From: a virus
IMG/VR virus record: IMGVR_UViG_3300020473_000152
Span: 1-21,067 of that record
DNA length: 21,067 nt
Direction: 5' to 3' (one strand)
The stretch's first letter is position 1; every line of letters starts with the position of its first letter. Of the stretch, positions 8,505 through 15,530 are shown in pieces. The notes below the pieces were generated by a model. That model was not told the origin of the DNA. It saw nothing but the letters and a program-made list of their open reading frames with translations, and made no database searches. Made by a program: the position numbers and the translations under genes.

Positions 8505-8908
8505 TATTTCATATTGTTTCTAGCAACGCCCTTCCACTTTTCTGCTGTACGCATACCACCAAGACCAAGAAGAGCCATGATAAGACTGATTAATTCATTA
8601 GTTTCTAACACAGGGAGCGTTACCTGTGGATACCAAGTGATAATAACCCAAGATAGAATGGGTGCTAATATAAACTGCCATGCCAGAGCAAAACAGCACA
8701 CCCACATGATAGCTGGCCTAGCTCCGCTGACGAATATAGAGGGGTGCCTTGCCTGTTCTATATTTGCCTGTGCTTGAGCAAGGTCCAAGGATACCATCTG
8801 TGTCTGAAGTTCATGCTCCAGCTTTTTCTTCAGGTCTTTGTCCTCTACAAACTTGTCAAGAACTTTGCCAGCTACTCCAATTACGGAGTCTGCAATACCT
8901 AATACCAT
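8504..8908 (-). CDS. GTA-type 3TM holin family protein
   Basis: This 134-aa protein has an amphipathic N-terminal region (1-55), then HPSIFVSGARPAIMW (55-69), the diagnostic entry to the first span of the GTA_holin_3TM family. More hydrophobic stretches lie at about 66-95 and 104-118. Family members are holins of gene transfer agents and alphaproteobacterial phages. The ATG overlaps the stop of the methyltransferase gene by one base (TAATG). Its SD (GGAGG) is encoded by the run of Glu codons at the end of that gene. It is on the opposite strand from the M15 endolysin cassette, so it would be transcribed with replication and glycan genes. Confidence 0.82.
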   Translation of the reverse strand: MVLGIADSVIGVAGKVLDKFVEDKDLKKKLEHELQTQMVSLDLAQAQANIEQARHPSIFVSGARPAIMWVCCFALAWQFILAPILSWVIITWYPQVTLPVLETNELISLIMALLGLGGMRTAEKWKGVARNNMK

Positions 8909-9597
8909 TATTCTTCCTCCTCAACTCTTTGCATCTTTATGATACGAGGATACTGATCAATGCGATAGCCCAGAGTTTCAAAGGTACTGGTATCATTGTC
9001 CACCATCGTATCTGCAAAGACATATATTTTAAGATGTTTGAAGTTTCTGCTTTTGTCTGCCAGTAATTGTAACCAGTTATCAGGAGTAAAAACAGAGATG
9101 TGGGCATTGCGCCCATCCGGTAGTGTCTTCATTGCTTCAAAGCAAGCAACATTTATAAATACTATTTTCTTTGCATAGGAAAATATTTCATCCACTACCC
9201 AAGATAAATCTTCTTCTGCTACATGTTCAAGAACATCAGTGCATATTACCGCATCTTTTCTGTGTATAGGAAGTTTACCATACTTCTCATAGCCGGGATC
9301 AAAAAGTTCATACTCATCAAGGTTCCAGTACTCAGGAAGTGGACAGTTTATCTCATTTGTTATTGTGTGATAATCTTCCCCATACAGGATACCTTTACCA
9401 CAGCCATAATCAAGAATAGATTTACAATTATTATCTTCTAGATAAGCTTTAATAAGATCAACAAACTTTAATAAGCTACGACCGTTAAACATACTATCGG
9501 CCTGATCATGTTTTTCCTCATACATCTTGATAAGATTAACATAATCATCTGATGGATTGTGACGGCTGTTCTGGTTTTCAATATTAATATTAGGCAT
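8908..9597 (-). CDS. Class I SAM-dependent methyltransferase
   Basis: This 229-aa protein contains SAM-binding motif I ILDYGCGKG (61-69) and a downstream DVLEHV (121-126), characteristic of class I (Methyltransf_11/23-type) small-molecule or glycan methyltransferases. No DNA-methylase catalytic motif (DPPY or PC) is seen, so DNA is an unlikely target. I chose ATG 9597 because AAAGGA lies 7 nt upstream and it overlaps the previous gene by only 8 bp. A longer reading frame from 9753 would overlap by over 160 bp. The protein ends VEEEE, whose codons form the next gene's ribosome site. Adjacent glycosyltransferase genes suggest it methylates a sugar or glycan. Confidence 0.83.
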   Translation of the reverse strand: MPNINIENQNSRHNPSDDYVNLIKMYEEKHDQADSMFNGRSLLKFVDLIKAYLEDNNCKSILDYGCGKGILYGEDYHTITNEINCPLPEYWNLDEYELFDPGYEKYGKLPIHRKDAVICTDVLEHVAEEDLSWVVDEIFSYAKKIVFINVACFEAMKTLPDGRNAHISVFTPDNWLQLLADKSRNFKHLKIYVFADTMVDNDTSTFETLGYRIDQYPRIIKMQRVEEEE

Positions 9598-11944
9598 CGT
9601 AGTATCCTTTAAACTGTGGTCTGATTTCCTGTGATTCTTTAATGTCCCATAGATCGGCAACCATTGTATTCTTTCCATGAAAACAAAGAACTCCCTCAAG
9701 ACCGGGATCATTAAATACTTTCTCACAGTCCTGTGCCATAGCAAGTAACTCACCTGTAGTCCAGTATGTCTGGTCTTTTACATTGACCTGTATGTACTTG
9801 GGCTTAGGAGTTTCACCACCCTCCAGATCACCAGTTGTTTCTGTCTTTTCTTCATTAGTAGGCTCATCCCTGCAACAGTCAAAGCCAAAGAGATGTATAT
9901 CTCTGAAGCCCATTGTATGTAACATACCAATGCCACGCATAGCAGCACATGTACCACCAGTGATAAGCGTAGCTCCCTGTGGAATACCAAGCTCCTGACT
10001 TAGTTTAACCTGCTGGTTCTCAATAACCTTACCTTGTTCATCCTCCTCACGCAGCGAGTCGGTAAAAGCATGCCAGCCCCAGATTTTTGCATTACGTTCC
10101 ATAAGATGTTCTGTAACAGAAGGGTCTGTCATAGATGCAACAAAAAAGTTCATGTCAGGATTAAAGTCCTTGAACAAATCTTTGCGTGTAATGTTATGTG
10201 TGCTTTTACCAGTGATAGGTCTGGGATCAAGAACAATACAACCCCATGGAGTTATGCCATTCTTAATTAGCCCCGGCAATGCATGTTTAACTGTAAGAAC
10301 TTTACAGTCAGTATTAGAGCTAAGAAACTTTTTAAGTTTCTCATAGTCAAGATATGGGCCAGCAGATATAAGAGCCGCCCTGCCTCTGTGTGCTGGGTGT
10401 TTCTGTACCCATCTTTTATTATCAATATGTTTTAAATTTGTTTTAATATTGTTTCGAATATATTCCTTTGGCACTGAGTCTCTGGGATGAACAACAATAG
10501 GAACTTGTTTTAGTTCAGCGGGAATGTCATCTAGTTTTTCATCGTGAAGAAAGACAACCAGATGTGTGCGGCCACCATCTATAACTTTATCATCCGATGG
10601 TAATACATATTTACGAACCGTTGCCTTCTCGTCAAACGATGTCCAGCCATCTTCTGTTGTTTTCTCTTCATTAATCTTCTTGGTTGGGATAGAATCAAAA
10701 AGATTTTTCATACCCTGATATTTATCTTCCGGTGTTTTGTCTTTATCATCCTTTGTAAAAAAGTGGTCGCCCATAACAACAGGAACATTCTTCAGGATAC
10801 TATATTCATGCTTAACAGTTTCAATACTGTTACCACTACCTATCAGAGCAAAGTCTACTTCATCCATATAAATAGATTTGAGTGTCTCTCTTACATTGCC
10901 CTTATGTAATTCATAGGTAAATTCTTTACCTTTTTCCTTCTTCATATGAGAGGCAAATTCGTCAAACCTTTTCTCAACAGCCTTCTTGGTATTGTGTGGT
11001 TTGGCGTTAAATTCTTCCTTATCTGTTTGGGTGGTAGCTTCCTCAAATAAATCGTATCCAATATAATGCACTGCATCAGTTCTATCAAAAGCAGCAAGAG
11101 CCATTTCAATAGCACGGCCACCATTCCATGTGCCGGTTTCAAGAATAGTTTCAGGCTCATAGAATCGAATTGTATCAGCAAGTTGTTTATATCTGCTGGG
11201 AAGAATATCAGGAGTAGTTTCTGTATCTGATAAATCAATAACTCTTTTACCAGAACTATCTCTTATATTAATAGAGGTCTTGTCATTTATATTTATAATT
11301 AAATTTTCCATACCAACAAACTCATGGACAGTCATGCCATGTGCAGTGTAGATTGTAACAAGTCTGCTAAGAATAAAAGCAGAAGTCCACTCACGATAGT
11401 TGGTAAACTCACCGGACATATAGGAGCCACGCCAATCACCCATAATATCTACAGGAGTTTGACGACTAAGATTAAATGCCATTAAATAAGATGTCTCTGG
11501 TGTATATATAAAATCTACATTATACTTTGGATCAGGAAAGTAATAATCTAATGTAGATGATCTAATATCTTTAACTGTAGCGCACATGGGGTCAACCCAT
11601 AGAAGCCAACACCCCTGATTGTTAAATCCACATTCTGTAATAGCAAATACTTCTGGACCAGATGAGAGTGCGTCAAGAAGTTCGGTGTATTGAACAACTC
11701 CGTTTTCAGTTCCATCGTGAGATTGGTTATCATCTACAAAAGATTTATATTCTTTAATATCTTCTAAATTATGATAGTATATATTATCTGCTTCAGGAAG
11801 AGAGTAATTACTAATATCAAGATTGTAATAGTAGCAATGAAATTCTATATTAGGTTGCCAGTTTTCTTTAAACTCATTAAGGAGTCTAAATCCGTTCTTC
11901 TTTAATTTCTTTTCATCAAAGCATGTTACAATTTTATATGTCAT
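9590..11944 (-). CDS. Three-domain protein: glycosyltransferase-like, methyltransferase-like, DUF115/Maf-like
   Basis: This 784-aa protein has three parts. Residues 1 to about 205 look like a nucleotide-sugar glycosyltransferase domain, with CWLLWVDPM near 112-120 where a DxD-type motif is expected. Residues about 250-400 form a class I methyltransferase-like domain: ILETGTWNGG at 267-276, then FALIGSGNSIETV near 365-377, where relatives usually have a D-G-G-H signature. Residues about 520-720 match DUF115/MAF_flag10, as in Maf flagellin glycosyltransferases: ALISAGPYLD, TVKHALP, VLDPRP and LFGFDCC. The start is ATG 11944 (MTYKIV), overlapping the upstream glycosyltransferase by 11 bp; a longer form from 12073 is less likely. 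It probably builds or modifies a virion or host surface glycan; donor and acceptor are unknown. Confidence 0.8.
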   Translation of the reverse strand: MTYKIVTCFDEKKLKKNGFRLLNEFKENWQPNIEFHCYYYNLDISNYSLPEADNIYYHNLEDIKEYKSFVDDNQSHDGTENGVVQYTELLDALSSGPEVFAITECGFNNQGCWLLWVDPMCATVKDIRSSTLDYYFPDPKYNVDFIYTPETSYLMAFNLSRQTPVDIMGDWRGSYMSGEFTNYREWTSAFILSRLVTIYTAHGMTVHEFVGMENLIININDKTSINIRDSSGKRVIDLSDTETTPDILPSRYKQLADTIRFYEPETILETGTWNGGRAIEMALAAFDRTDAVHYIGYDLFEEATTQTDKEEFNAKPHNTKKAVEKRFDEFASHMKKEKGKEFTYELHKGNVRETLKSIYMDEVDFALIGSGNSIETVKHEYSILKNVPVVMGDHFFTKDDKDKTPEDKYQGMKNLFDSIPTKKINEEKTTEDGWTSFDEKATVRKYVLPSDDKVIDGGRTHLVVFLHDEKLDDIPAELKQVPIVVHPRDSVPKEYIRNNIKTNLKHIDNKRWVQKHPAHRGRAALISAGPYLDYEKLKKFLSSNTDCKVLTVKHALPGLIKNGITPWGCIVLDPRPITGKSTHNITRKDLFKDFNPDMNFFVASMTDPSVTEHLMERNAKIWGWHAFTDSLREEDEQGKVIENQQVKLSQELGIPQGATLITGGTCAAMRGIGMLHTMGFRDIHLFGFDCCRDEPTNEEKTETTGDLEGGETPKPKYIQVNVKDQTYWTTGELLAMAQDCEKVFNDPGLEGVLCFHGKNTMVADLWDIKESQEIRPQFKGYYDA

Positions 11945-12704
11945 AGGGTTTAATAATTCCTTTCCCCGCAAGGTAGGTATAGTCGCCATTCCACTCGGCG
12001 GCATATTTACCGTCAATATCTCTGCTACATTTCCATTCCCTGAACCACGGGCCACCTGTTGTAAAGTGTACATTCTTTGCTTCTACCTCCTCTGGTGAAT
12101 GCCCATCAAGCCAGTTCCATTCTTGATGTATGCTACCAATATCTGCTTCTTTATCAGGCAACCACTGAAAGCCATGAAGCCAAGAGCCTGTTTGAGTGTT
12201 TACCTCTAGTGGTGTCAGTCTTTTATTAAGTTCATGTCCACAGTTCCAAAGAATAAGACTTGACCAGTTTTTTCTGCGATAGTGTTCTTGTTTTCTTCCA
12301 TCCATTTTGAACTCTTCGGTAGGTTCATATTTGTGTTTGACACAATATAATGGATAGTAATCCATTTTATATTCTTCAAATAATTCGTTAATATCTGTGC
12401 GAAGGTACATGTCGCAGTCCATGTATAACGCCCAACCTTGATACATATTAAGGGCGGGTACAAGGAAACGTGTAAAGCTAAAGTCTGTGGAAAATGGCTT
12501 GCCATCTATGTCATCAATCATCTGGCCGTCTTTAACACTGTGTTTACGGTTATACAAACCCATGCGCTCCACTACATCTTTACGAATAGGTTTGATGTCC
12601 ACGTTATCAACGGCAATACGTTCAATGGTAAACTTTAAAACTTCATAGGCTACATCTTCTCTTGGATCGTAACCAATATAAACTGTATTAGGTGGCTTTC
12701 TCAT
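11934..12704 (-). CDS. Glycosyltransferase, GT8-like
   Basis: This 256-aa protein has the GT-A layout: VYIGYDPRE at 8-16 (start of the nucleotide-binding strand), YMDCDMYL at 94-101 with the metal-binding DxD (D96, D98), NWSSLILWNC at 146-155, and VHFTTGGPWF at 212-221 with a His in the usual third metal-ligand position. This matches family 8-type retaining glycosyltransferases. All key residues look intact, in contrast to the altered motifs in the larger protein downstream. It overlaps the previous gene's stop by one base (TAATG). It is first in a block of three glycan-related genes; the acceptor is unknown. Confidence 0.85.
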   Translation of the reverse strand: MRKPPNTVYIGYDPREDVAYEVLKFTIERIAVDNVDIKPIRKDVVERMGLYNRKHSVKDGQMIDDIDGKPFSTDFSFTRFLVPALNMYQGWALYMDCDMYLRTDINELFEEYKMDYYPLYCVKHKYEPTEEFKMDGRKQEHYRRKNWSSLILWNCGHELNKRLTPLEVNTQTGSWLHGFQWLPDKEADIGSIHQEWNWLDGHSPEEVEAKNVHFTTGGPWFREWKCSRDIDGKYAAEWNGDYTYLAGKGIIKPYDI

Positions 12705-12949
12705 TAAATTTCTCTCTTATTTTCAGCACAAATAATATTCTTAACAACTCCGTGCTTTCCTTTTTGTTTAAAAAAGTTAAGGGCAAACTTTTCTAAATTT
12801 ACATGATGTTTATCGACGTAAGCAAGACAAGGAGATAAAGAATTAAATAGTATTATCTTATTAGTCATGTCACGTATTACTACTGCATCCCCTCCCTTAT
12901 AATAGGAGGGGTCAGAGAAAAACATTGTTATTAGAATAAGATATTTCAT
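12704..12949 (-). CDS. Small hypothetical protein, possibly exported
   Basis: This is an 81-aa protein with a short hydrophobic N-terminus (KYLILITMFF) that could be a weak signal or anchor, two Cys (C41 and C74) that could form a disulfide, and a basic C-terminal half. I do not recognise the family. The start is ATG 12949 with AGGAG and 6-7 nt spacing, directly downstream of the hsp20 terminator. It is therefore the first gene after a transcription stop and would depend on readthrough. Translation is well supported by the SD and the TAATG junction with the GT8 gene. Confidence 0.65.
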   Translation of the reverse strand: MKYLILITMFFSDPSYYKGGDAVVIRDMTNKIILFNSLSPCLAYVDKHHVNLEKFALNFFKQKGKHGVVKNIICAENKREI

Positions 12950-12960
12950 ATTGTACTCCT

Positions 12961-12997
12961 ATATAAAATGGGGGAGCAAACGCTACACACTCCCCCA
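12961..12997 (-). terminator. Intrinsic terminator after hsp20
   Basis: A perfect 8-bp GC-rich stem (12969-12976 with 12990-12997, TGGGGGAG/CTCCCCCA) around a 13-nt loop is followed in the minus direction by UUUUAUAU (12968-12961). It begins 8 nt after the hsp20 stop codon. The weak U-run suggests partial readthrough into the glycan genes. Confidence 0.75.
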
Positions 12998-13004
12998 AGT
13001 TTAG

Positions 13005-13445
13005 TTACAAGCTGTAGATTTTTTCCTTCTTGTCTTCAGGTATTACCTGTTGAAGATTAATGGTAATCATCCCATCTTTGAAAGATACTTCATCTACAAC
13101 TACGTCGCTGGCAAGATGGAAAGACTTTGTAAAGGGCCGCTTTGCTATGCCTTTTTGTGCGAACCTTTCATCATCTTCCGCCTCTTCTTTCCTGCCAGAT
13201 ATAGTTAGCGTACCGTCCTCAGTCTTTATTTCCAACTCCTCTTTACTGAAGCCAGCAGCGGCTAACTCAATTACATACCGTCCATTGTTGTTCTTGATTA
13301 GATTGTGAGGCGGATAAGAACTAGCTGAATAGTTAGATGTCTTATCTGCCATCCTTAACATGTCTTTAAATAATCTATCATGTCCAATAGCCCATGTAGA
13401 AAATCTAGAAAAGAATGGATCGTTACTTGTAATATATGCATTCAT
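13005..13445 (-). CDS. hsp20: Small heat-shock chaperone, Hsp20/IbpA type
   Basis: This 146-aa protein is a class A (IbpA-like) small heat-shock protein. It has AIGHDRLF in the N-terminal arm (19-26, as in IbpA), YPPHNL before the alpha-crystallin domain (about 47-135), AGFSKEELEI, then GIAKRPFTKSF and the C-terminal VIPEDKK. Such proteins hold unfolded proteins in a refoldable state without ATP. Phage forms are known from T4-like cyanophages. The ATG at 13445 is preceded by AAGGAG with 7-nt spacing; an ATG at 13450 would stop after two codons. The gene has its own consensus promoter, a structured leader and a terminator, so it can be expressed independently of its neighbours. Confidence 0.95.
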   Translation of the reverse strand: MNAYITSNDPFFSRFSTWAIGHDRLFKDMLRMADKTSNYSASSYPPHNLIKNNNGRYVIELAAAGFSKEELEIKTEDGTLTISGRKEEAEDDERFAQKGIAKRPFTKSFHLASDVVVDEVSFKDGMITINLQQVIPEDKKEKIYSL

Positions 13446-13498
13446 ATCATTTCTCCTTATAGCAAGTTGATATTGTGTGACCCATTATTGGCATCACA
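13445..13498 (-). promoter_or_regulatory. hsp20 leader: two hairpins, candidate ROSE-like RNA thermometer
   Basis: Hairpin 1 pairs TGTGA (13498-13494) with TCACA (13480-13476). Hairpin 2 pairs TATCA (13472-13468) with TGATA (13449-13445), including the A of the start codon. Inside it CUU (13466-13464) faces GAG of the SD (read 13455-13453), with UUGCU (13465-13461) just upstream. UUGCU opposite the SD is the ROSE signature. The pairings are visible in the sequence; temperature response is inferred. Confidence 0.45.
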
Positions 13499-13503
13499 TA
13501 TAT

Positions 13504-13532
13504 ATTATAATACATAAAGTGGCTTTTGTCAA
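13504..13532 (-). promoter_or_regulatory. Consensus sigma70 promoter of hsp20
   Basis: The minus strand reads TTGACA (13532-13527), a 17-nt spacer and TATAAT (13509-13504), which matches both hexamers exactly with ideal spacing. The predicted transcript start is near 13497, giving a leader of about 50 nt. It begins 9 nt after the RNR stop. It does not look like a sigma32 heat-shock promoter. Confidence 0.9.
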
Positions 13533-13541
13533 GAGGTTTTT

Positions 13542-15227
13542 TTATACGCCGCAAGAACCACCATGACCTGTAATATCACAGATGTCATGTGTCTCTAGTC
13601 CTTCTTCAAACTCCTCACCAAGTTTCTCTACAGCTTCAGAATACGGCACTGAAGAAAGAGGCTGTCCTCCTCTACATCCATCAGGGTACACGGTGAAACC
13701 ACGCAACCTGTGAGAATAAGAGGCAAGAGTATCAGTAAACTCTGCAACAGTATCTTCATTGTTTAACTTGCTCCCCCACTTAGGTAAGTTTATGGTGCTA
13801 CTAATAGACATGTCTACATAATCCTGTACATCTGCCTGAAATTTTATACGCCTTTTATAGTCTTCAGCAAGATCAAGGGCAGACTCAATCTTTTTGGGAT
13901 CAACACCATAGAGATCAATGATCTCCTGTGCTGCACTGTCCACCACATACTGATAGTGCCAACGATTACCACCCTTTAGATACCTGCGCTTATAAGCAAC
14001 TGCAAAGATAGGCTCGACACCTGTAGAGGTGCCAGCTAGAATACCTATTGATCCTGTAGGAGCAATGGCACGATTAGCGACAGGAGTACTACACCCAAGA
14101 GTATTACTAAAGTCGGCGCTAATGTGATCACTAACTCCTTTATAGACTGCCAACCACTTGTGAAGTCCTTCGGTAACTTCATACTTTTGTCCTCCTTTAA
14201 TCAGCCATTCATGCATACCCATCAAGCCAAGACCAAGCCTACGGTTTTTCTCCCTGACCTTGTATACCTTATCATATGGAAGCTTTGCCCGAAGTGTTCC
14301 ACATAGCAGGAACTTGGTGGCAAGTTCTACTACGTCTGCAAACTCTTTCAGGTCATCAATGCGGCCCATATTAACAGAACCAAGATTACAAACATCAGAA
14401 TCATCTTCAGATGTAACCTCCGTGCAAGCGTTACGTAATGTCTCCTTTTCCTTGTCGAAGAAATTGAACGAGAATCCCGGTTCAGCACTTCTAAGAGCCT
14501 GACGTACATTAGTCCTAAAGACATCTCCTGTATCTCCTGTTTTCCAAAAGTTAAGTAACCATTCTGTATCGTAGTTCACGCTGATGTTTGTCATATCCAG
14601 CGGTGCTGTAAAGTTAAAGTCTTGTTCCTTGACCTGACCAATAGAAAAACCTGTTTCGCCCACTGGCATATCATACCAGTTCTTACTGGCAAGAAACTTT
14701 TCTATGTCAGCATGTTTCCAGTTGAGGCTGGCATATATAGCAGAGCGGCGACTACCACCCTGCATGACACGCCTACCAATCTCATTGACCATCTGCATCT
14801 TTGGAATAGGACCAGAGGCTAGACCACCAGTGCCTTGCAGTATCCTTCCCTCCTCACGGTAGACAGAATAATCAATACCTATACCACCACCTGTCATAAG
14901 ACAGGACTCAGACTTCCAAGAGATGTCAGCCCAATCTTCCCTAGTATCCTCTTCTGCTTTGAGAAGGTAGCAGTTATTAAAGAACTTATTTTCACGCCCT
15001 GCATAGTAAAGATAACGACCACCGGGAATAAACTTTAGATCAGTAATCATACGTTTTAATTCATCTTTTTCATCCTTACTGAGATAGTCCTGACATACAT
15101 CATCTACCAATGTAGATGCCAGTGCATCCCATGTCTCACACCCATGATGGGCATACTTGTGTTTAAAAATATCTTCGCTGAACTTAGAGCGAAACATAGG
15201 GTTTTCGTTAGAACGAAATTGTGGCAT
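13542..15227 (-). CDS. nrdJ: Ribonucleotide reductase, class II (cobalamin-dependent) type
   Basis: This 561-aa enzyme makes deoxyribonucleotides for phage replication. Visible core residues are C86 (NNCYLL) and C280 (CNLGSVN) as the redox pair, N266-A-C268-T-E270 as the radical/catalytic motif, APTGSIG (substrate phosphate loop, about residue 390), and a C-terminal Cys pair (C550, C559; SCGV end) for re-reduction. SCLMTGGGIGIDYS (108-121) is of class II character, and no small (NrdB) subunit is present here, both suggesting the adenosylcobalamin form. Some phage RNRs have been moved between classes, so class is less certain than family. ATG 15227 has an AAAGGGA SD. The hsp20 promoter follows its stop. 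Confidence 0.9.
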   Translation of the reverse strand: MPQFRSNENPMFRSKFSEDIFKHKYAHHGCETWDALASTLVDDVCQDYLSKDEKDELKRMITDLKFIPGGRYLYYAGRENKFFNNCYLLKAEEDTREDWADISWKSESCLMTGGGIGIDYSVYREEGRILQGTGGLASGPIPKMQMVNEIGRRVMQGGSRRSAIYASLNWKHADIEKFLASKNWYDMPVGETGFSIGQVKEQDFNFTAPLDMTNISVNYDTEWLLNFWKTGDTGDVFRTNVRQALRSAEPGFSFNFFDKEKETLRNACTEVTSEDDSDVCNLGSVNMGRIDDLKEFADVVELATKFLLCGTLRAKLPYDKVYKVREKNRRLGLGLMGMHEWLIKGGQKYEVTEGLHKWLAVYKGVSDHISADFSNTLGCSTPVANRAIAPTGSIGILAGTSTGVEPIFAVAYKRRYLKGGNRWHYQYVVDSAAQEIIDLYGVDPKKIESALDLAEDYKRRIKFQADVQDYVDMSISSTINLPKWGSKLNNEDTVAEFTDTLASYSHRLRGFTVYPDGCRGGQPLSSVPYSEAVEKLGEEFEEGLETHDICDITGHGGSCGV

Positions 15228-15242
15228 AGCTTTGTTCCCTTT

Positions 15243-15530
15243 CTAATTATCGTATTCCATTTCCAATATGAGTTGGGCATAGTGGATTGCTTTCTCTATA
15301 TCCTTTTTCCCCTCCCCTTTAGTGCGGTGTCGTGTAATATATTTTATCACATTCCCTTCTAGATAGTCAAGCCCATTGGCGTGAATATATTCTACTGGTT
15401 GTATCTTGCATCCTTTATAGTGCTGTCCTCCTACTTGTTCTTTTAATGCTCTCTGTTCTTTTGACCTTCTTAGGTAGTAATCATAGTTACGTTCATTATA
15501 AGAATGAGTTGAGCTTTCGTCTGATTTCAT
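15243..15530 (-). CDS. DUF3310 protein
   Basis: This 95-aa protein has the DUF3310 signature: GGQHYKGCKIQPVEYI (34-49), LEGNVIKYITRH (57-68), then KDIEKAIHYAQLILE (76-90). The family is widespread in phages, usually near nucleotide-metabolism or replication genes. It has been called a nucleotide kinase without firm proof. Here it lies just upstream of RNR, which suits a nucleotide-pool role. The start at 15530 has GGAG 7 nt upstream and gives a 35-bp overlap with the previous gene. There is no later in-frame ATG before the conserved domain. Confidence 0.85.
   Translation of the reverse strand: MKSDESSTHSYNERNYDYYLRRSKEQRALKEQVGGQHYKGCKIQPVEYIHANGLDYLEGNVIKYITRHRTKGEGKKDIEKAIHYAQLILEMEYDN

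Follow-up and report, generated by a model that had tools for sequence, protein, structure and literature searches.

The closest described relatives of the element reported here are the ROSE_3 leaders of Pseudomonas ibpA: in P. putida and P. aeruginosa, hairpin II melts between 25 and 42 °C, freeing the Shine–Dalgarno (SD) sequence, while hairpin I remains closed and reporter expression tracks temperature (Krajewski et al. 2013, PMC3669281). These leaders are short and sit right in front of a small heat shock gene. Of the two hairpins that they form, hairpin I (GAUGCC...GGGUC) carries a bulged G and hairpin II pairs CU(U/C)GCU with AGGAG (PMC3669281). The classical ROSE element of rhizobia (RF00435) and ROSE_2 of enterobacteria also set U(U/C)GCU opposite the SD of a small heat shock gene, but have three to four hairpins (PMC3669281). 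The hsp17 thermometer of Synechocystis, in the leader of a cyanobacterial small heat shock gene, is a single short hairpin (mentioned in PMC3669281). Among phages, temperature control of translation by leader RNA has been proposed for lambda cIII, the blyA fourU element of prophage SPbeta (PMC10586365) and a sigma70-gene candidate (Robo-Therm, PMC11182007), whose motifs and genes differ from those of an hsp20 ROSE-type element. The hsp20 gene itself belongs to the core gene set of T4-like cyanophages (PMC3037559). In titles and abstracts of the open-access literature, we found no report of a ROSE RNA thermometer as a phage, cyanophage or phage hsp20 feature.

The stretch of DNA analysed here (the window) is a contig of 21 kb (21,067 nt) of a marine phage. 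On its minus strand, an hsp20 gene at 13005–13445 encodes a 146-aa small heat shock protein of the alpha-crystallin type (PF00011, E 9.9e-16; phrog_432 Hsp20, E 8.7e-38), as the initial annotation had proposed. The upstream gene, on the same strand, encodes a ribonucleotide reductase (13542–15227, ORF coordinates; PF02867, E 4e-49), and because it ends at 13542, 96 nt before the hsp20 start, a promoter and an RNA element fill the intergenic space. The promoter (13504–13532, minus strand) is of the sigma-70 type, with TTGACA at 13532–13527, a spacer of 17 nt and TATAAT at 13509–13504; it agrees with the consensus in 12 of 12 bases and is the best among all sites in 12600–15400. Judging from the spacing of the −10 box, the transcript is predicted to start near 13498, where hairpin I begins. 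Close relatives of the window (L008, L009, L026, L027 and L029) have a tRNA gene directly 5' of the hsp20 promoter (at approximately 2328–2401), unlike the window, where no tRNA gene was found upstream of this promoter. Elsewhere in the window, a gene at 9590–12073 (minus strand) encodes an 827-aa protein with an MptE-like match (PF01973) and weak methyltransferase matches, adjoined by a methyltransferase gene at 8908–9753.

Directly behind the promoter, the hsp20 leader (13498–13443, minus strand) folds into a bulged-G hairpin followed by an SD-hiding hairpin in the ROSE fashion. Hairpin I (13476–13498, minus strand), whose outer part had been noted earlier as a TGTGA/TCACA hairpin at the 5' end, comprises a 6-bp stem (UGUGAU/GUCACA), a bulged G at 13492, a 3-bp inner stem (CCA/UGG) and an AUAA loop, and is found in the minimum free energy and centroid folds and in the ROSE_3 alignment. 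Hairpin II (13444–13473, minus strand) has in the fold an outer stem of AUAUCA (13473–13468) with UGAUAU (13449–13444) around the anti-SD/SD core. The initial annotation had described this stem as TATCA/TGATA, reaching the start codon; it extends to 6 bp and thus pairs both the A and the U of the AUG. The UUGCU that it placed upstream of the SD is part of the ROSE motif CUUGCU (13466–13461, minus strand), 3 nt before the SD AGGAG (13457–13453, minus strand), and the inner CUU facing the GAG of the SD is likewise present on the minus strand. In the ROSE reading, which follows the alignments to ROSE_3 and to our own model R1, CUUGCU pairs with AGGAG and sequesters it, with the G at 13463 bulged and a 3-nt loop between. 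None of 200 dinucleotide shuffles folded as well as the 59-nt element (z −2.48); longer stretches of the leader were unremarkable against shuffles (z −0.6 and −0.3), and folding energy alone is therefore unconvincing.

Comparison with Rfam placed the element close to ROSE_3 (RF02523). This model matched the window leader over its full length, in the right place and on the right strand, with 34.7 bits (E 9.2e-6 in 271 nt; 1.7e-7 computed for the whole record). The covariance-model check suggested at the outset thus gave a match at the exact site, but one below the ROSE_3 gathering cut-off of 43 bits, and the window element is therefore not filed as a formal member of RF02523. At gathering level, the Rfam scan of the window gave no match, and no ROSE family was found in 15 window-like and 20 other viral loci (35 in total), all of which were below the cut-off; no match to RF00435 or ROSE_2 was reported in the scans of the window. 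ROSE_3 scored 34.1 bits in the Melnitz phage of Methylophilales, and the Rfam ROSE models missed the element in the cyanophage isolates tested. Other Rfam families in the leader (lncRNA, snoRNA, freshwater-2) gave weak, sub-threshold matches at chance level and were rejected.

In its features, the element has the two-hairpin layout of ROSE_3 with the conserved bulged-G hairpin I and, as in ROSE elements at large, a U(U/C)GCU anti-SD imperfectly paired to the SD with the G bulged, in the leader of a small heat shock gene (PF00011 in the window). It also shares a covariance model with the Pseudomonas elements in both directions, since ROSE_3 matches the window and the phage-trained R1 matches Pseudomonas hsp20/ibpA leaders (E 1e-5 to 6e-8), one of them from a P. 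putida strain. Unlike the Pseudomonas elements, it is phage-borne, A-T rich and below the Rfam cut-off. The start codon lies within the outer stem in the window's lineage, whereas the AUG is unpaired in Pseudomonas, and in cyanophages, which have the two-hairpin ROSE layout in contrast to Synechocystis hsp17, the stem and tetraloop of hairpin I vary widely (UUCG, GAAA and GUAA loops).

The distribution of the element was assessed with R1, a covariance model built from 12 viral leaders (seed with equal loop lengths), from whose training the window, cyanophage and pelagiphage sequences were left out. R1 scored the window at 53.4 bits (E ~1e-12), its single match in the contig. A pattern made from two conserved cores, whose viral matches supplied the 12 leaders for R1, occurred in at least 119 viral contigs and at least 120 genome contigs; hsp20 lay directly downstream in 107 of the 119 viral matches listed, and most of the others ran off the contig end or, in some cases, preceded dnaK. 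As the window guided the design of this pattern, the cleanest test comes from loci picked by the Hsp20 protein alone. Among contigs selected in this way, 77 of 80 Prochlorococcus-phage-like and 74 of 81 pelagiphage-like (Mosig-like) ones had an R1 match at E<0.01 where hsp20 begins. The seven remaining Mosig-like contigs comprise six with the element in place at E 0.012–0.1 and one without leader DNA; over both sets, ten contigs fell outside the threshold, two without a leader, one truncated and seven with the element in place at E 0.012–0.1.

Among credible named phage records, 12 of 14 carry the element (11 isolates and one single-cell virus): Syn19, Melnitz-3, S-PM2, S-CRM01, Phosso, P-SSM4, the single-cell virus AG-345-O18, P-TIM68, Mosig, S-SSM7, HTVC103P and, weakly (E 0.036), Cassandra. 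R1 found no element before the hsp20 genes of Vibrio phage IBT_VpB-34 and Salicola phage SCTP-2, and phage hsp20 can therefore do without it in some cases. In whole phage genomes of 140–470 kb, the hsp20 element was the top R1 match in eight of nine, with no other match at E<0.01. The records Y7 and A18a (UNVERIFIED) contain bacterial-type ibpA DNA and were excluded as phage evidence, and a blastn search of the window leader against phage isolates returned nothing useful.

Several loci depart from the hsp20 arrangement. In viral contigs, some of them 104–219 kb long, the same ROSE element stands 6 nt upstream of a putative phage dnaK (L069:1553-3521, L125:4403-6371, L129:1432-3400 and L059:3277-3460; PF00012, E<1e-249 in L069 and L129). 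It also precedes a 65-aa ORF without a Pfam match that looks phasin-like by eye (L121:1578-1839), and short ORFs starting MSKHTY or MSKHTF where the contig ends or stops early (L078:2687-2778, L096:12582-12669). Some cyanophage-like loci contain a second ROSE-like site; in L348 (1044-1115), where it lies downstream of hsp20, R1 scored it at 20.3 bits, and it was left aside as weak. With the phage model, elements in four genome contigs (L220:1267-1336, L228:6894-6968, L258:1716-1790 and L170:518-583) outscore those of Pseudomonas; L220 and L170 are titled as uncultured Gammaproteobacteria MAGs and L228 as Neomarinimicrobiota, of marine type. These contigs are possible donors, or may represent viral sequence in bins.

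Within the window's lineage, a protein-only hsp20 search gave 36 viral relatives with 60–92% identity, 34 of which have leader DNA. R1 found the element at the hsp20 start in 34 of 34. The ROSE-like candidate is thus supported, conservation being what we found where its absence had been set beforehand as the refuting outcome. The outer stem is also kept in all 34, with one pair lost in L033 and L034. A second set of 29 distinct leaders (52 loci) was retrieved by a pattern built on the 5' arm and the UUGCU motif and including ATATCAACTTGCT and AGGAG. The 3' arm TGATAT, left free in that pattern, was exact in 27 of the 29, with a U-G wobble in L027 and a lost pair in L033. The outer stem of hairpin II is conserved yet too invariant to covary, and it is special to this lineage, so that only the conservation part of what the initial annotation had expected of TATCA/TGATA is borne out. 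In hairpin I, by comparison, a C-G pair is exchanged for U-A in L002 and a G-C pair for A-U in L046 and L150.

Compensatory changes were evaluated across 61 non-redundant held-out phage leaders. Standard pairs occupied 94.6% of pair cells, against 78.9% after shuffling, and the covariation score was 0.460, against 0.179 shuffled and at most 0.113 with the partner slid. Double changes occurred in 133 cells, and in hairpin I both sides had changed in eight of nine pairs. The CUYGCU/AGGAG core was paired in 61 of 61 leaders, its third pair alternating between U-G and C-G; apart from this, the pairs of hairpin II were invariant. Such invariance is expected, because the strand must also serve as the SD, and the support for hairpin II therefore comes from conservation and not from covariation. 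The compensatory changes named at the outset as a check are accordingly strong in hairpin I but nearly lacking in hairpin II, and at the family level it is hairpin I together with the CUYGCU/AGGAG core, not the outer stem originally pointed out, that provides the evidence. Because the alignment had been fitted to the model, an alignment-free test was added: 60 of 61 leaders had a bulged-G hairpin with 6 bp or more on the 5' side of hairpin II, compared with 1.3% of shuffled ones. Structure also contributed to detection, raising the score over a sequence-only model from 33.4 to 53.4 bits in the window (a gain of about 20) and from 12.6 to 30.7 bits in P-TIM68 (a gain of 18).

The position of hairpin I relative to promoters recurs in different phage groups. 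TTGACA-17-TATAAT is intact in 27 of the 29 distinct leaders of the window's lineage, although the spacer is only 58% identical. The SAR11 phage isolate HTVC103P, which provides the best database match (48%) to the DNA polymerase of the window, has hsp20 behind TTGACA-17-TATAAT and then its own bulged-G hairpin (R1, 40.5 bits). Just 5' of hairpin I, a TAWATA box, which we take to resemble a T4-type late promoter, occurs in 64 of 71 cyanophage-like loci (about 6 expected) and 58 of 67 Mosig-like loci (about 9 expected). This placement suggests that the transcript probably begins at hairpin I in these groups.

The anatomy, conservation and covariation of the element, its constant position ahead of hsp20 across diverse phages and its reciprocal recognition with Pseudomonas leaders argue for a phage-borne ROSE-type RNA thermometer that acts as a translational lock on hsp20, a reading to which we assign a probability of about 0.72. 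Repression of translation by the leader and its opening by temperature are what we infer from these comparisons; because R1 recognition indicates homology, the mechanism in the window is most likely that of Pseudomonas ibpA. The strong host-type promoter would transcribe continuously an hsp20 mRNA with a short leader starting at hairpin I, a stable bulged-G hairpin at the 5' end. In hairpin II, CUUGCU would pair imperfectly with the SD AGGAG around a bulged G, and in the window's lineage the 6-bp A-U-rich outer stem would additionally mask the first two bases of the AUG. Hairpin II would bar ribosome loading at normal temperature; upon warming, it would melt while hairpin I remains closed, and the chaperone could be made at once from existing mRNA. 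Counted against a thermometer, open-ocean hosts experience modest temperature swings. Opening the SD in the window has a computed cost of 4.1 kcal/mol at 20 °C, which drops to 2.1 kcal/mol at 42 °C; this is not exceptional, as 20% of upstream shuffles were at least as high. Neither SD-accessibility curves nor opening energies separated real from shuffled leaders, or phage elements from known Pseudomonas ones. As these energies fail to separate even the known Pseudomonas elements, they neither support nor exclude thermal opening.

The leader might instead be mainly a protein-stress sensor, in which phage Hsp20 would attach to its own leader and keep the mRNA from being translated until unfolded or aggregating protein, such as virion protein late in infection, titrates the chaperone away. 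E. coli IbpA binds its own 5' UTR and represses its own translation, for which Arg93 and an aromatic residue at position 34 are needed (PMC10474464). The Arg93 equivalent is kept in 208 of 210 phage Hsp20 proteins, position 34 is Y or F throughout (210 of 210), and 207 have K or R at position 97; hairpin I, which does not melt in Pseudomonas (PMC3669281), is maintained through compensatory changes, as a recognition site would be. A sensor of protein stress on the same RNA is therefore plausible and not exclusive, since Hsp20 autorepression can act jointly with thermal opening. However, the Arg93 equivalent may be conserved for folding alone, and position 98, where E. coli needs a positive charge, is S or A in most phage Hsp20. 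As the main role of the leader, we hold protein-stress sensing to be possible but on balance doubtful. Rather unlikely, in our judgement, is a combined form, a dual sensor common to unrelated phages, in which hairpin II would open with temperature and phage Hsp20 would dock on the covarying bulged-G hairpin I, the module moving among proteobacterial and cyanobacterial phages along with hsp20 and, at times, dnaK. If this were true, heat and the burden of unfolded virion protein would both govern chaperone synthesis.

It is improbable that the hairpins merely protect the 5' end of the mRNA or fix a low translation rate without any sensing. A transcript that probably begins at hairpin I, as the promoter spacing suggests, would suit a stabilising 5' hairpin, and the opening-energy calculations do not set the element apart from shuffled leaders, but such a role leaves unexplained both the bulged-G CUYGCU/AGGAG core in 61 of 61 leaders and the placement before hsp20 and, in some viral contigs, dnaK. 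A chance likeness of an SD in an AT-rich leader, with no functional RNA, fits the ordinary folding of long stretches of the window leader (z −0.3 to −0.6) and is refuted to near certainty by covariation, held-out detection and the shuffling controls.

Returning to the ROSE-type lock, the ROSE element itself is known; as far as the open-access literature shows, what is new is its widespread presence in phages, including cyanophages, and the variant that covers the start codon. Because isolates exist (HTVC103P, S-PM2, P-SSM4, Syn19 and Mosig), this reading is directly testable. ROSE elements would thereby reach beyond bacterial chromosomes into viruses, those of cyanobacteria among them. Our results suggest that many phages gate their Hsp20 chaperone by temperature or protein stress. 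If the lock is real, chaperone synthesis in phages that infect SAR11, Methylophilales, Sinorhizobium, Prochlorococcus and Synechococcus would respond to temperature or protein stress, which would bear on how marine infection reacts to warming.
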